Of a stretch of 64,000 nucleotides of DNA, positions 12,378-41,275 are shown piece by piece. Numbering within the stretch: the first letter of the stretch is position 1; each line of letters opens with the position of its first letter. A program made the position numbers and the translations under genes. The stretch spans positions 1-64,000 of the forward strand of contig CAKZSH010000174.1 of NCBI GenBank assembly GCA_937918905.1. Reading direction: 5' to 3'. The DNA is from an uncultured Saprospiraceae bacterium (lineage in GTDB: Bacteria > Bacteroidota > Bacteroidia > Chitinophagales > Saprospiraceae). A model generated the notes under the pieces. It was not told where the DNA came from, did no database searches, and worked only from the letters and a program-made list of their open reading frames with translations.

Positions 12378-12462
12378 ATTGAAAATGAAAAATTGAAAAT
12401 TTCAATAGCACGGTGAATACACGGTTTTCGAAATTTTCAATTTTCAATTTTTCATTTTCAAT
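12378..12462. repeat. Long hairpin exactly filling a convergent gap
   Basis: ATTGAAAATGAAAAATTGAAAATTTC-aatagcacggtgaatacacggttttc-GAAATTTTCAATTTTCAATTTTTCATTTTCAAT. Confidence 0.93.
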
Positions 12463-12968
12463 CAATATCCTAGTTGCATGTTTTTGTTGAAACTTAAATC
12501 CAAAACTCTCAATTTTCTTCTCTTTCCAATTCTATATTTTTTGATATAAAATATTCTTCGAATTAAAAAACCGAGACCAACTGAGGAAGCAGGAACTTTC
12601 CAAGCCAAGTCATTTAAAGGGACATCATCTAACGTACCCAATAATGAAAATCCCAACCAAGATGCTGCAAAAGTATACAAACTGCCTTCTGCAATTCTAG
12701 CTCCTCTTCTGTATTTTTTTAACATAGTGATATCTGAAACTTTTACAAAACGTTCGGAGAAAACGATAATATTTTCTTCTGCTTTGATATCAATCATAAT
12801 GTCTTTATACCATCCTTTACTTCCTTTGAGTTTAAAAATTATTTCTTCACCGAGGTAGAATTTTTTGGTTTTTACTTTACCTCTTTTTTCCATTTGTAAA
12901 ACTTTTTGAGCGGATACAGGTATGGCAGTAAAAAGAAAAAGGGCTAGAAAAATGTAGATAAATTTCAT
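12462..12968 (-). CDS. Hypothetical exported protein
   Basis: Signal peptide MKFIYIFLALFLFTAIPVSAQ; uninterrupted ORF. Confidence 0.65.
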   Translation of the reverse strand: MKFIYIFLALFLFTAIPVSAQKVLQMEKRGKVKTKKFYLGEEIIFKLKGSKGWYKDIMIDIKAEENIIVFSERFVKVSDITMLKKYRRGARIAEGSLYTFAASWLGFSLLGTLDDVPLNDLAWKVPASSVGLGFLIRRIFYIKKYRIGKRRKLRVLDLSFNKNMQLGY

Positions 12969-13036
12969 AAATCTGATTTTGTTTTTTTTTGTAAAAAACG
13001 AAAAGAGAAGGAGGGTGGTTGGAAAGACATAAAGAT

Positions 13037-13192
13037 ATATTGAGAAGAGAACGCAGATAAAACGGAAGCGGCGGATTTTTTTGGATTTTTTTCTTAGGAC
13101 ATAATAAAATTCAAAAATGTCCTAAGAAAAAAATCTGTTTCAATCCGCTGAATTCATTTCATTTGCGTTCCCATCTCAATATTTTTTTGACA
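13037..13192. repeat. Long intergenic hairpin (family E: GCGGCGGATTT)
   Basis: ATATTGAGAAGAGAACGCAGATAAAACGGAAGCGGCGGATTTTTTT...TTCTTAGGACA / TGTCCTAAGAA...AATCCGCTG...TTTGCGTTCCCATCTCAATAT. Confidence 0.9.
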
Positions 13193-13200
13193 AAAATATT

Positions 13201-13983
13201 TTACACAAAATCATCATTATTTGTATTCGGTTTTTCAGGTATAGGAGCATTTTCATCTTTTAAAAAGACACCACCTTTTTCCTTAAACATAAAACCTATG
13301 ATTACTCCAAATACAAAACCTCCAATGTGAGCCCAATATGCTACTCCTCCTCCTGCTGCTTTTCCCATAGATGAAAAACCACTAAACAATTCATTGGCAA
13401 TCCACATTCCTAAAAAGATAAATGCAGGGACTTTAAAAGATTGGAAAAATACCAAGACCATCACTTTAATTTGTGATTTTGGGAACATTACAAGGTACGC
13501 CCCTAAGACTGCTGCAATCGCTCCACTTGCTCCTACAGTTGGGACAGAACCCGCACATATATTAGTTACTTCTCCGACACATTTGATACCTTGATCGTTT
13601 CCACACGGGAAACAACATCCTATTTGATCTGTTCCCATTCCAAAATAAATATGTGCAATTGAAGCAGCCACTCCGCCAGCTAGATAAAACAAAACAAACT
13701 TAAAACTACCTACAGTAGCTTCAATATTATCTGCAAATATCCATAGCATCAACATATTACCAATAATATGCATCAACCCGCCATGCATAAACATACTGGT
13801 CAGTAAAGTGAAATAATTTTTTCCATTTAGAATATCTTGGGGAATCGAGCCGTAATTGCAAATTAGCAAATCGGGGTCTTGCATCTGAAGAACAAAAGCG
13901 ATGACATTTAGCGCAATAAATCCATATGCAAAAAGTGGGAAATGACCACCTTTAACTTGGTCGTCACCTATAGGAATAAACAT
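13201..13983 (-). CDS. Rhomboid family intramembrane serine protease
   Basis: MHGGLMHIIGNMLMLWIFADNIE, VGASGAIAAVLGAYLV, AHIGGFVFG; start trimmed to MFIPIGDDQ. Confidence 0.92.
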   Translation of the reverse strand: MFIPIGDDQVKGGHFPLFAYGFIALNVIAFVLQMQDPDLLICNYGSIPQDILNGKNYFTLLTSMFMHGGLMHIIGNMLMLWIFADNIEATVGSFKFVLFYLAGGVAASIAHIYFGMGTDQIGCCFPCGNDQGIKCVGEVTNICAGSVPTVGASGAIAAVLGAYLVMFPKSQIKVMVLVFFQSFKVPAFIFLGMWIANELFSGFSSMGKAAGGGVAYWAHIGGFVFGVIIGFMFKEKGGVFLKDENAPIPEKPNTNNDDFV

Positions 13984-14035
13984 AATTTTGGTATTTGATT
14001 CGAGGGGCAAAGTACGGCTTTTTTTATAAAATTTT

Positions 14036-14143
14036 GTTCTTTGATGAATTCTGTGGTTAGGGAAAAGTGGAAAACAAAACGACCAAAGGAAGAGTTGCTT
14101 TCTACTTTTCCCTGACTCAAAAACACGGAATTTGTCAAAGAAC
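14036..14143. repeat. Long hairpin in divergent gap upstream of rhomboid gene (family F)
   Basis: GTTCTTTGATGAATTCTGTGGTTAGGGAAAAGT ... ACTTTTCCCTGACTCAAAAACACGGAATTTGTCAAAGAAC. Confidence 0.88.
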
Positions 14144-14230
14144 CCCAAATTAATGTTGGAATCTTATTAGACGGATAGCCGTGTAGCTACTATTTCTCTA
14201 CTTAGTGTGCATTTGCGTACAAAAAATCTG

Positions 14231-26532: not shown

Positions 26533-27429
26533 ATGAATAACGGTGAATTTTTTACTGCTTTACAAAAAGGAATCAATAGTCTTTTTACGTCCTGTTATTC
26601 ACAGTTCACAGTTCACAGTTCAACGTTATTCCTCTTCTTTTTAGTTACCAGTTGTTCTGCGAAAATCACACCTACCGAACCTAAGGATTCTTCTGCTTAC
26701 GATTTGGTAAAGGAGATTGAAGTTGAGGCTCGACTCATTACAACAGACAAACTTCAACAACTGTATGTCGTTACTCAAAAAAATGATGTGATTAAGTTCA
26801 GTCCTGAAGGAAAAGAATTATTCCGTTTTACAAATAATACCTTGGGTGAATTGACTCATATTGATGTGACGAATCCTTTTAGTGTACTTTTATATTATCC
26901 AGATTATTTGACGGTTTATACATTGGATAGGACATTGAATAAAACTGGAGAATTTAATTTCTTAGATTTAAATCTAACCTCTGTCGAGGCGGTAGGGATG
27001 TCGAATGATAATAATGTCTGGCTTTACGATGAGGTTCTTTATAAAATAAAAAAAGTAAATCGTAGTGGAGAAGTGCTTCGGGAGAGCGAAAATTTGAGCA
27101 CTCAATTTGGCTTAGAAATTCAACCTGATTTTATTTTAGAGCGAGAGAATATTTTATATGTCAATGACCCAACTGTTGGAGTAGTCGTATTCGATATTTA
27201 TGGACAGTACATCAAAACGATTGATTTAAAAAACTTAACTTCCTTTCAAATCATTGATAATCAATTAATTTACCAAGATCAAGATCAGTTGAAATCTTTT
27301 CATTTACAATCACTTGCTACTCAAGTTATTGATTTGCCCCAAGTGATTTCAGATGAATTTAAAGTAGAAATTCGAAAAAGTAAGTTGTTTGTTATGAAAA
27401 AAAATAAAGTTGGAATTTATTCTTTTTGA
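26533..27429 (+). CDS. Putative lipoprotein, beta-propeller-like
   Basis: Signal peptide YSQFTVHSSTLFLFFLVTSCSAK; repeating strands. Confidence 0.65.
   Translation: MNNGEFFTALQKGINSLFTSCYSQFTVHSSTLFLFFLVTSCSAKITPTEPKDSSAYDLVKEIEVEARLITTDKLQQLYVVTQKNDVIKFSPEGKELFRFTNNTLGELTHIDVTNPFSVLLYYPDYLTVYTLDRTLNKTGEFNFLDLNLTSVEAVGMSNDNNVWLYDEVLYKIKKVNRSGEVLRESENLSTQFGLEIQPDFILERENILYVNDPTVGVVVFDIYGQYIKTIDLKNLTSFQIIDNQLIYQDQDQLKSFHLQSLATQVIDLPQVISDEFKVEIRKSKLFVMKKNKVGIYSF
26536..26631. repeat. Hairpin overlapping signal-peptide codons of the 26533 CDS
   Basis: GAATAACGGTGAA ... TTCACAGTTCACAGTTCACAGTTCAACGTTATTC. Confidence 0.7.
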
Positions 27430-27553
27430 CGTACGCTGCGCTTGACGAATCGAAAATATTCGATAAAAAAATGCCTTGATTTATTTAATAAATCAAGGCA
27501 TTTTTATTTGATAAAATTACGCTCTAAGTGTTGTCAAGCGCAGCGTACGTCCT
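27427..27553. repeat. Nested inverted repeat (family D) surrounding an inner bidirectional terminator
   Basis: Outer GACGTACGCTGCGCTTGAC / GTCAAGCGCAGCGTACGTC; inner AAAAATGCCTTGATTTATT-taa-AATAAATCAAGGCATTTTT. Confidence 0.95.
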
Positions 27554-34358: not shown

Positions 34359-34520
34359 ATGTCAAAAAGAACATTTCAACCATCAAGACGTAAGCGGGCT
34401 AACAAACATGGATTCCGTTCTAGAATGAGTACTAAAAATGGTAGAAAAGTATTGGCTCGAAGAAGAGCTAAAGGTCGATTAAAATTGACTGTTTCTGATG
34501 AACAATCAGGAAACAAGTAA
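34359..34520 (+). CDS. rpmH: 50S ribosomal protein L34
   Basis: [53 protein letters not shown]; 53 aa, absent from ORF track because short. Confidence 0.97.
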
Positions 34521-34612
34521 TGAACAATTAAGAATGAATAATGAATAATTTTCACAGTTCTGTGAATACGTTATTCGAAACTATTCATTATTCATTTTTA
34601 ATTATTCATTAA
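34521..34612. repeat. Long hairpin exactly filling the rpmH-rnpA gap (family G)
   Basis: TGAACAATTAAGAATGAATAATGAATAATTTTCACAG-tt-CTGTGAATACGTTATTCGAAACTATTCATTATTCATTTTTAATTATTCATTA. Confidence 0.93.
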
Positions 34613-35020
34613 ATGAACTTTACTTTTCGAAAAGAAGAAAGACTCAAAAGCCGAAAAACTATCGGCAAACTCTTCAAAGAAGGCCACTCTTTTATTTCAT
34701 ATCCTATTAGATTTGTTTGGGTAAAAATGGAAACACCGTTGAGTGATTTCCCTATTCAAATGTCATTGACAGTACCCAAAAGAGCTTTCTCCAAAGCTGT
34801 AGATCGCAACCGACTCCGTAGAAGAATTAGAGAAGCATATCGCCTCAACAAGCATTCCCTTTATGAAGTTTTAGAAAAAGAAGTACCCAACGAACAGCGT
34901 GGGTTGATGCTCATTTATGTAGCGAAGGAAACTATGGATTTTCATGAAATTGAAAAAGGAATGAAGAAAGGGCTTTATAAAATGGGAAGGAAGATAAAAA
35001 CGTTAGACGATGGACGTTAG
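34613..35020 (+). CDS. rnpA: Ribonuclease P protein component
   Basis: FRKEERLKSRKTIGKLFKEGHSF...VPKRAFSKAVDRNRLRRRIREAYRL. Confidence 0.95.
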   Translation: MNFTFRKEERLKSRKTIGKLFKEGHSFISYPIRFVWVKMETPLSDFPIQMSLTVPKRAFSKAVDRNRLRRRIREAYRLNKHSLYEVLEKEVPNEQRGLMLIYVAKETMDFHEIEKGMKKGLYKMGRKIKTLDDGR

Positions 35021-35067
35021 ACGTTTTACGGCCCGTAAAACGTCTAACGTTCAACGTCCAACGTTTT
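34997..35067. repeat. Palindrome carrying the 3' ends of both rnpA and batD-like CDSs (family J)
   Basis: ACGTTAGACGTTTTACGG / CCCGTAAAACGTCTAACGT core; outer AAAACGTTAGACGATGGACGTTAG / CTAACGTTCAACGTCCAACGTTTT. Confidence 0.96.
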
Positions 35068-36795
35068 CTCAATTTTTACAATCACTTCTTTTGCATTTTG
35101 ATAGGTTTCTTGCATGGCAGCAGAATTATCCATTCCAGCAAATAATGCCATTTCACAAGTTTTTATGATTTTTATAAAATCGTCAATGTATTGTTGAGTA
35201 ACATTGAGGGATTGTAATTTTTCTTGAACATTGGCTTTTGAAAGTTCGGAAAGTGGAATGTTTAATTTATCACAAACATATCCAAATGACGCTTTGGACA
35301 CTTCATCATAAAATCCTTTCGAATTATTTTCATTCATAAAAATTTCCGCTTGCGACAGTTTTTCAGTAGCGACCTTTTGCGCTTTTTGACTTTTTAATAA
35401 CGTCAAATCAATCGAACCATTTTTAAGTTGTTGGTTTCGATAAACAATTGCTCCACCCAACAATACAAATGGAAGTACTGCCAAAACCCAAAATAGGGGA
35501 GACCCAAAAAAGAATTTCCCTTGCGTACTCAAACTTGTCGTTTCCTTGATTGGATAAAATTCTGTTTTTGCTTCATCATCTTTTTTGACAATAGAAGAAG
35601 CTCTTCTTTTTCGACCTTTTTTGACATTAAGCGTAGTTGCTGGAACTGCTAAGGTGAGAAATTTAGAACTATCAATATCGTAATAAGTGAACTGAGGTTG
35701 AATGGAATATGTCCCTGCTTCAAGTGGTAAAGCTTGATATTCAAAAACCTTTCGTCCCTGAATTTCTCCTTCAAATTCAAAAGTTTTTTCCTCCAAAATA
35801 CTTGGATCGTACACATCAAATTTTTCTCCTAAATCCATCTTTGGAGATTGGATTCTTTTTAGATCACCATTGCCTTGAATTGACATCGTAATCGTCAATG
35901 CATCATCAGTAGACATGTTACGTTTGTCAATACTTGCTTGCATTTCATATCGTCCTACTGCACCACTAAAGTTTGGTGGGATGCTGTCAGCAGGGAAAGG
36001 TTTGACATTAATTTGTACCGTATCAACAGCATAAGGAAAAAATTCAACTTCATTAAAACGAAAGCTATTTCGCCTTCCAGTTGATGGTTTGCTTATACCT
36101 ATGTTTATATTATAAGGTTCAATGGTAAGTAATCCTGCTTGTTGTGGAAAAAGTGCTACTCGATTAATAATTTTAGTAGTATACATTTCTCCATTCAGTT
36201 CTTCTCGCATGGTACGATAACTAAATCTTCGAATACCTTTTGCAAAAAATCCTTTATAATCGGGATCTTCTCCTAAGTCATAACTGCTAATTGGAATTTT
36301 GGTATAAAGTTTATAATTGACTGTAATCTGTTGCCCAACTCTTGCCTCGGTGGTACTCGGTTCTGCTCTTACAAAAAATTGATCTTCGAGATTTATATTT
36401 GGGTCATTTTCTGCGGGTTTTTTCCCTTTGACCACCTCAATAGTAAAAGGCTTAGTTTTTATTTCTTTTCCATTGACGGTAGCAGTCGCAGATTTGAAAA
36501 CATACTTACCAGCCTTCTTTGTTTTGTAATTGTAAACCAATGATCTGGAGGTACTCGCCTTTCCGTTAATGATGGTGGTGCTACTTTCTTGAGCAGGATT
36601 TCCTGTTTGAATTATGCCTCTAACTTGGGGAGGTGTGAATTTCGTCCAATCTCCATTGGTGATGGTATAGGTAACTGTAAAATAATCATCTTCGACAATT
36701 CTTCTAACATCAGGCGTAGCAGTAAAGGTTACTTGCCCTAGTAATAAAATCGGAAAGCTAATTAAAAAAAATAAAAAAATTAATTGTTTCAACAC
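35044..36795 (-). CDS. batD: BatD family protein (oxygen-tolerance, Ig-like domains + TM)
   Basis: VTFTATPDVRRIVEDDYFTVTYTITNGDWTKFTPPQVRGI...; position in bat locus. Confidence 0.85.
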   Translation of the reverse strand: MLKQLIFLFFLISFPILLLGQVTFTATPDVRRIVEDDYFTVTYTITNGDWTKFTPPQVRGIIQTGNPAQESSTTIINGKASTSRSLVYNYKTKKAGKYVFKSATATVNGKEIKTKPFTIEVVKGKKPAENDPNINLEDQFFVRAEPSTTEARVGQQITVNYKLYTKIPISSYDLGEDPDYKGFFAKGIRRFSYRTMREELNGEMYTTKIINRVALFPQQAGLLTIEPYNINIGISKPSTGRRNSFRFNEVEFFPYAVDTVQINVKPFPADSIPPNFSGAVGRYEMQASIDKRNMSTDDALTITMSIQGNGDLKRIQSPKMDLGEKFDVYDPSILEEKTFEFEGEIQGRKVFEYQALPLEAGTYSIQPQFTYYDIDSSKFLTLAVPATTLNVKKGRKRRASSIVKKDDEAKTEFYPIKETTSLSTQGKFFFGSPLFWVLAVLPFVLLGGAIVYRNQQLKNGSIDLTLLKSQKAQKVATEKLSQAEIFMNENNSKGFYDEVSKASFGYVCDKLNIPLSELSKANVQEKLQSLNVTQQYIDDFIKIIKTCEMALFAGMDNSAAMQETYQNAKEVIVKIEKTLDVER

Positions 36796-41118: not shown

Positions 41119-41275
41119 CCCCCGACCTCTTTTTGAATATCGAATATCGAACAAGGAACAAGGAATATCGAAGTTTGACGAATACTTGTGAGTTCTCCTT
41201 ATAACCATTAGTTCGTCAAACTTCGACATTCCTTGTTCCTTATTCCTTGTTCGATATTCAAAAGGGGTAGGGGGT
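41119..41275. repeat. Long hairpin (family B) ending at the batA stop
   Basis: CCCCCGACCTCTTTTTGAATATCGAATATCGAACAAGGAACAAGGAATATCGAAGTTTGACGAATA / AGTTCGTCAAACTTCGACATTCCTTGTTCC...TTGTTCGATATTCAAAAGGGGTAGGGGG. Confidence 0.96.

Follow-up and report, generated by a model that had tools for sequence, protein, structure and literature searches.

Several described systems come close to the locus reported here. The GTAG- or CGTC-tagged REPs are short high-copy palindromes located mostly between convergent or unidirectional genes, near the 3' ends, and REPs that supply stop codons or are located at gene ends have already been published (PMC3733652). In Rickettsia, palindromic elements (RPE) are a case of a palindromic repeat that has turned into part of unrelated proteins (reviewed in PMC10969869). 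The heptameric repeats of Calothrix, Nostoc and Xanthomonas are intergenic high-copy units of 7 nt, with sites common to relatives and strong sequence variation (PMC4692102), and the bidirectional intrinsic terminators and inverted repeats beside stop codons in E. coli are gene-end hairpins with A and U tracts, common to convergent genes (PMC6060812). On heptameric or palindromic repeats in Saprospiraceae-type genomes, our literature searches found nothing relevant.

Below we report a window, i.e. the whole analysed stretch of 64,000 nucleotides from an uncultured Saprospiraceae bacterium, in which the convergent genes rnpA and batD end in one and the same palindrome. The features concerned are listed in Table 1. 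We consider it probable that a copy of a multiplied palindromic repeat, lying at an inversion seam, replaced the native ends of both genes and now serves as their shared terminator, the two protein tails being by-products. In addition, a palindrome lies on either side of rnpA, the ribosome-binding region of which is in an arm of the upstream hairpin.

Table 1. Coordinates of the features discussed, in positions of the window
Feature	Position	Strand	Details
gX	12462..12968	-	unnamed gene; immediately follows rnpA in 22 of 29 relatives, here 22 kb away
Palindrome at the other inversion breakpoint	13031..13188		different vocabulary; 72-nt arms, 76%; inner perfect 19-nt arms 13084-13135
Inverted segment	13201..35020		runs the opposite way in two congeners; bounded by the rhomboid gene and rnpA, whose 3' ends are at the breakpoints
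gY	13201..14148	-	rhomboid-family gene; faces batD in G002 and G004
Second palindrome of the same class	34518..34611		AATGAAT heptads, TTATTCGAAA apex; stops 1 nt short of the start codon of rnpA
rnpA	34613..35020	+	RNase P protein subunit; PF00825 Ribonuclease_P, 65 bits
Left arm	34997..35031	+	(ACGTTAG)-type heptads; first 24 nt are rnpA codons 129-135 and stop
Repeat-derived RnpA tail	34997..35020	+	KTLDDGR and stop
Right arm	35033..35067	-	outer 24 nt are batD codons 577-583 and stop
Repeat-derived BatD tail	35044..35067	-	KTLDVER and stop
batD-like gene	35044..36795	-	BatD homologue; PF13584 BatD, 98 bits

The inverted repeat occupies exactly positions 34997-35067 (71 nt), with 35-nt arms paired at 32 of 35 positions (91% complementary) around a centre of 1 nt; the preliminary description, in which one palindrome encodes the C-termini of the two convergent genes, is thus correct to the base. 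Its edges fall between GGAAGATA and AAAACG on one side and between CGTTTT and CTCAATT on the other. Its apex is ACGTTTTACGGCCCGTAAAACGT, and the apical core CGAATAnTnnTGA, common to many members of the class, is absent. Within an arm, 19 of 28 positions match at a lag of 7, and none of 100,000 permutations reached the same periodicity. Inverted repeats with arms of at least 20 nt number 57 in 244 kb of real sequence versus none in the block-shuffled sequence, the RNA fold z-scores of the palindrome are -9.5 and -10.5, and the pattern is absent from every shuffle. A chance origin of the palindrome and tail pattern is excluded.

The C-terminus of RnpA is KIKTLDDGR and that of the BatD homologue KIEKTLDVER. 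The tail codons are AAA ACG TTA GAC GAT GGA CGT TAG for rnpA (from 34997 on the plus strand) and AAA ACG TTG GAC GTT GAA CGT TAG for batD (from 35067 on the minus strand). Each arm starts on a codon boundary of its gene and gives seven codons and TAG, both being entered at the identical repeat position and in the identical frame, which agrees with the earlier claim that both stop codons lie in the repeat and that the proteins share a KTLD(D/V)(G/E)R tail. The outer arms differ at three sites, one of them silent (TTA/TTG) and two residue-changing (D/V, G/E), and the tails are identical at five of seven residues. This near-identity (KTLDxxR) arises because the arms are near-complementary and are read inward in one frame. 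The five shared residues might also suggest selection on the tail at the protein level, for instance as a targeting or degradation tag common to both, but we find this scarcely credible, since the identity is automatic for a palindrome read in one frame, two of the three differences between the arms are non-synonymous, and these two genes alone have a KTLD tail within 736 kb of the genome.

That a repeat had replaced or extended both native ends, as also proposed in the preliminary description, is borne out by the comparison of C-termini in relatives for which it called. The KTLD tail is found in none of 29 RnpA and none of 30 BatD relatives. In G004 and G002, which are of the same genus and the nearest genomes with both genes comparable, the hairpin is absent, RnpA ends in ..KKGLRKLPHRL and BatD in ..VKIEEELS or ..VKIEEELN; G003 is uninformative for this comparison, its batD being cut by a contig end. 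In the window genome, K129 of RnpA is the first repeat codon, AAA, at the position of the relatives' stop codon, and the Pfam domain ends at residue 124. RnpA is thus the native protein plus seven residues from the old stop position onward, a tail that should be easy to tolerate because RnpA C-termini vary freely across the family. In BatD, the repeat begins after ..KIE, the last four residues EEL(S/N) being exchanged for seven. The arm edges coincide with the native stop position of RnpA and with the residue at which BatD ceases to match ..KIEEEL. It is also conceivable that the palindrome was first an intergenic terminator and that the native stops were lost by substitution, whereupon the frames ran in. 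For RnpA one base change would be enough, as codon 129, now AAA, stands where the native stop is TAA; however, BatD lost EEL(S/N) besides its stop, exactly at the arm edge, and both genes enter their arm between two codons and at the same point of the repeat, a pattern more readily explained by replacement than by substitutions that arose twice independently. We thus hold such a read-in by point mutation to be clearly unlikely. Orthologues display the earlier state of both protein ends, and the locus is a natural case in which a non-coding repeat rewrote the ends of two proteins at once, including the conserved RNase P protein subunit.

Gene ends inside such repeats are also seen elsewhere. 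The batD gene of G001, another species of the genus, ends in ..EEELGRGE with GGGAAGAGGGGAATAGGGATTTGAGAAGTTTG across the stop (L165:3216-3420), and 14-mers of this repeat have up to 15 occurrences inside palindromes of the window genome; this end is an independent capping by a different repeat of the same vocabulary, and capping is recurrent. In the window genome, a histidinol-phosphate-aminotransferase-like gene (named by eye) ends in ..AMGRREQ inside a AAGGGAAGAAGGG palindrome. Of the 488 genes called mechanically, 14 have their end within a repeat of this sort, most by a few bases only. A milder form of the rnpA and batD case is seen at L131:8343-8461, where two convergent outer-membrane-like genes share an ACGGTGA-type palindrome and both end at most 6 nt from its edges. 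Annotation pipelines would list repeat-derived tails as ordinary protein sequence.

Two observations go beyond the preliminary description, namely that the junction is the breakpoint of a 22-kb inversion and that the palindrome is a member of a genome-wide class. As to the first, the block between 13.2 and 35.02 kb is inverted against G004:C36 and G002:C43, its mappable genes having reversed order and orientation. In both congeners gX follows rnpA and the rhomboid gene gY points toward batD, while in the window genome gX faces gY and rnpA faces batD. The adjacency of rnpA and gX is ancestral, the two being neighbours on the same strand at 22 of 29 rnpA loci. The second seam spans 12968-13201 and contains a long palindrome. 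With palindromes at both seams, the palindrome may itself have caused the inversion, two related inverted copies, one following rnpA and the other the rhomboid gene or batD, having recombined to leave a hybrid at each seam; in G004 and G002 an inverted-repeat-like stretch of other vocabulary, read by eye, is already present just behind the rnpA stop. However, the vocabularies of the two seam palindromes differ (ACGTTAG versus GGATTTTTTTCTTAGGACA), two palindromes at two seams are unsurprising given that palindromes occupy about 42% of convergent and about 24% of tandem gaps, and the one inversion found in the 311 kb compared is too small a sample for judging an association between palindromes and breakpoints. 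On balance we incline against this course of events, while giving it more weight than any other alternative to a repeat copy that replaced both gene ends at the seam.

The assembly is a draft of 372 contigs and the palindrome comes from a repeated class, as would suit an artefact in which unrelated ends were joined through the repeat. Such an error is nevertheless very improbable: the next best genomic copy of the palindrome has only 76% identity, the arms differ mutually at three positions, the reading frames are open into the arms on both sides, and a false join would need reciprocity at two sites with different repeats.

As to the class, the 736 kb of the window genome surveyed contain 158 inverted repeats with arms of at least 20 nt, a class that is defined by shape and also counts terminators of the ordinary kind and one or more further palindrome families (TGTAACCGCCAAATTCATTTGGC). 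The class is strongly expanded in the window genome: for repeats with arms of at least 28 nt, 311 kb of it yield 42, versus 6 and 1 in the corresponding regions of G004 (309 kb) and G002 (339 kb), respectively. Matches within arms are in excess mainly at lags 7 and 14 (class mean at lag 7 of 0.376 versus 0.291), i.e. with the 7-nt period of heptameric tandem repeats, examples of the units being ACGTTAG, GAACAAG, GTGACTC and AATGAAT. The apical core has 313 copies here, versus 7-35 in 11 other genomes and 6 for its reversed control, and is enriched 76-fold in inverted repeats. The AACGTT vocabulary is present at several further sites of the window genome. The density of inverted repeats is highest in convergent gaps (2.3 per kb), followed by tandem (1.4) and divergent ones (0.55). 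On the whole, the class behaves as REPs do, with many dispersed copies that are enriched near 3' ends and in convergent gaps and that supply stop codons. As to an insertion with target-site duplication, as in MITEs, gaps with a palindrome are a median of 56 nt longer than in G004 but show no such difference from G002, the intergenic DNA being too diverged for empty-site alignment; the positional conservation of palindromes between genomes gives small tables with a mixed outcome. The class is thus expanded in one species of the genus and nearly absent in a congener, which opens a way to study the origin of such palindromes, the maintenance of complementarity between their arms and their influence on genome order. 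Tentatively, and with more doubt than confidence, we suggest that the palindromes are repeat elements of a new kind. Their arms would consist of 7-nt words that are interchangeable and change while complementarity is kept, often around a species-specific core (CGAATAnTnnTGA); such elements may spread without a known transposase, settle at gene ends, replace native stops and terminators and provide the seams of inversions.

The members of the class vary in form. Three copies (window 27428-27551, L107:5094-5214 and L115:4799-5023) have arms that flank an apparent complete ordinary terminator hairpin instead of a short loop, and look as if the arms had formed or landed around a terminator. At 41120-41274 of the window, a GAACAAG-type palindrome is apparently nested between older complementary stretches (CCCCCGACC and GGGGTAGGGGG), and the same site in G004 and G002 has a short homologous hairpin. 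In G139, of another genus, loci L141 and L151 have pure direct (ACGTTAG)n arrays behind genes, not arranged as inverted repeats in the part seen. The reversed control pattern GCANNTTGCANNTTGCANNTTGCA has 72 matches in G119 and 176 in G195, which suggests that these genomes have a heptad vocabulary of their own. The idea that heptads stop all three frames, and would thus cap any gene safely, is rejected as a property of the class, as all frames are stopped within 36 nt for 12.9% of arm entries versus 16.3% in shuffles.

A RAYT/Y1 transposase is unsupported as the driver of the expansion. Among four Y1_Tnp genes, none is a cognate RAYT flanked by the focal repeat, while one is flanked by a different palindrome, and the Y1_Tnp counts (4 in G000, 3 in G004, 0 in G002 and 8 in G082) do not track the expansion. 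The Y1-transposase gene at L135:1150-2117 has GCGCCACCTTTTCAAGGTGGTGC palindromes on both sides, an arrangement that is REP/RAYT-like and separate from the heptad class.

The present role of the palindrome is most likely that of a shared bidirectional transcription terminator, because it is predicted to be stable on both transcripts, is followed by short U tracts and is the sole structure between the stops. Its fold energies on the two strands are -43.6 and -45.9 kcal/mol, the tracts after the hairpin are, by reading, U4 and U5 on the two exits, and the stop codons are 23 nt apart with no other terminator-like site between rnpA and batD. In G004, a classical-looking hairpin terminator is located at the batD end. 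A consensus terminator scan does not report the palindrome, the stem and loop of which fall outside the range it accepts; the stem has no high GC content and consists of A-U pairs at its base. With the stop codons inside the stem, in its 5' half, a ribosome that terminates there would sit over a portion of the hairpin. Ribosome stalling and reduced expression are reported for E. coli REPs at most 15 nt from a stop codon (as cited in PMC12306157). By analogy, the hairpin may possibly affect RnpA or BatD dosage.

The reading that we prefer starts from what is observed, namely tails that the relatives lack, an inversion and a class that has expanded. The palindrome would be one copy of a non-coding palindromic repeat class multiplied in this genome. 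The 22-kb inversion would have set the rnpA 3' end opposite the batD 3' end with the palindrome at the seam, each arm taking the place of a native gene end, so that both genes read in and stop at TAG. An RNA hairpin on either transcript would now terminate both genes, replacing the ordinary terminator of the relatives, and the tails are presumably tolerated by-products, given the free variation of RnpA ends in the family.

Compared with the known systems, the class is like REPs in being high-copy palindromes near 3' ends. However, the focal element, with its 71 nt and 35-nt arms, is not the imperfect palindrome of 20-40 bp of the GTAG/CGTC-tagged REPs, and no terminal GTAG/CGTC tag lies outside the hairpin, CGTC being present only inside the right arm and repeated along it. 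In addition, its arms are built of heptad repeats, no linked tyrosine transposase was found, and one copy closes two genes. The element is thus not filed as a REP, given its size, tag and transposase, though it is REP-like in behaviour. Unlike RPEs, which are in-frame inside genes with a conserved open frame, it is a place where both genes stop. The heptamers of PMC4692102 form direct G-rich arrays, while the heptads here form long inverted repeats, and compared with the bidirectional terminators of E. coli the stem is much longer, has low GC at its base and contains the stop codons. Stop-donating REPs and protein-forming palindromes are already known. To these, the present locus adds a single copy that ends two genes and gives them matching tails, the before-and-after comparison with orthologues, and the location of this copy at the seam of an inversion, amid an expansion of heptad palindromes at the species level.
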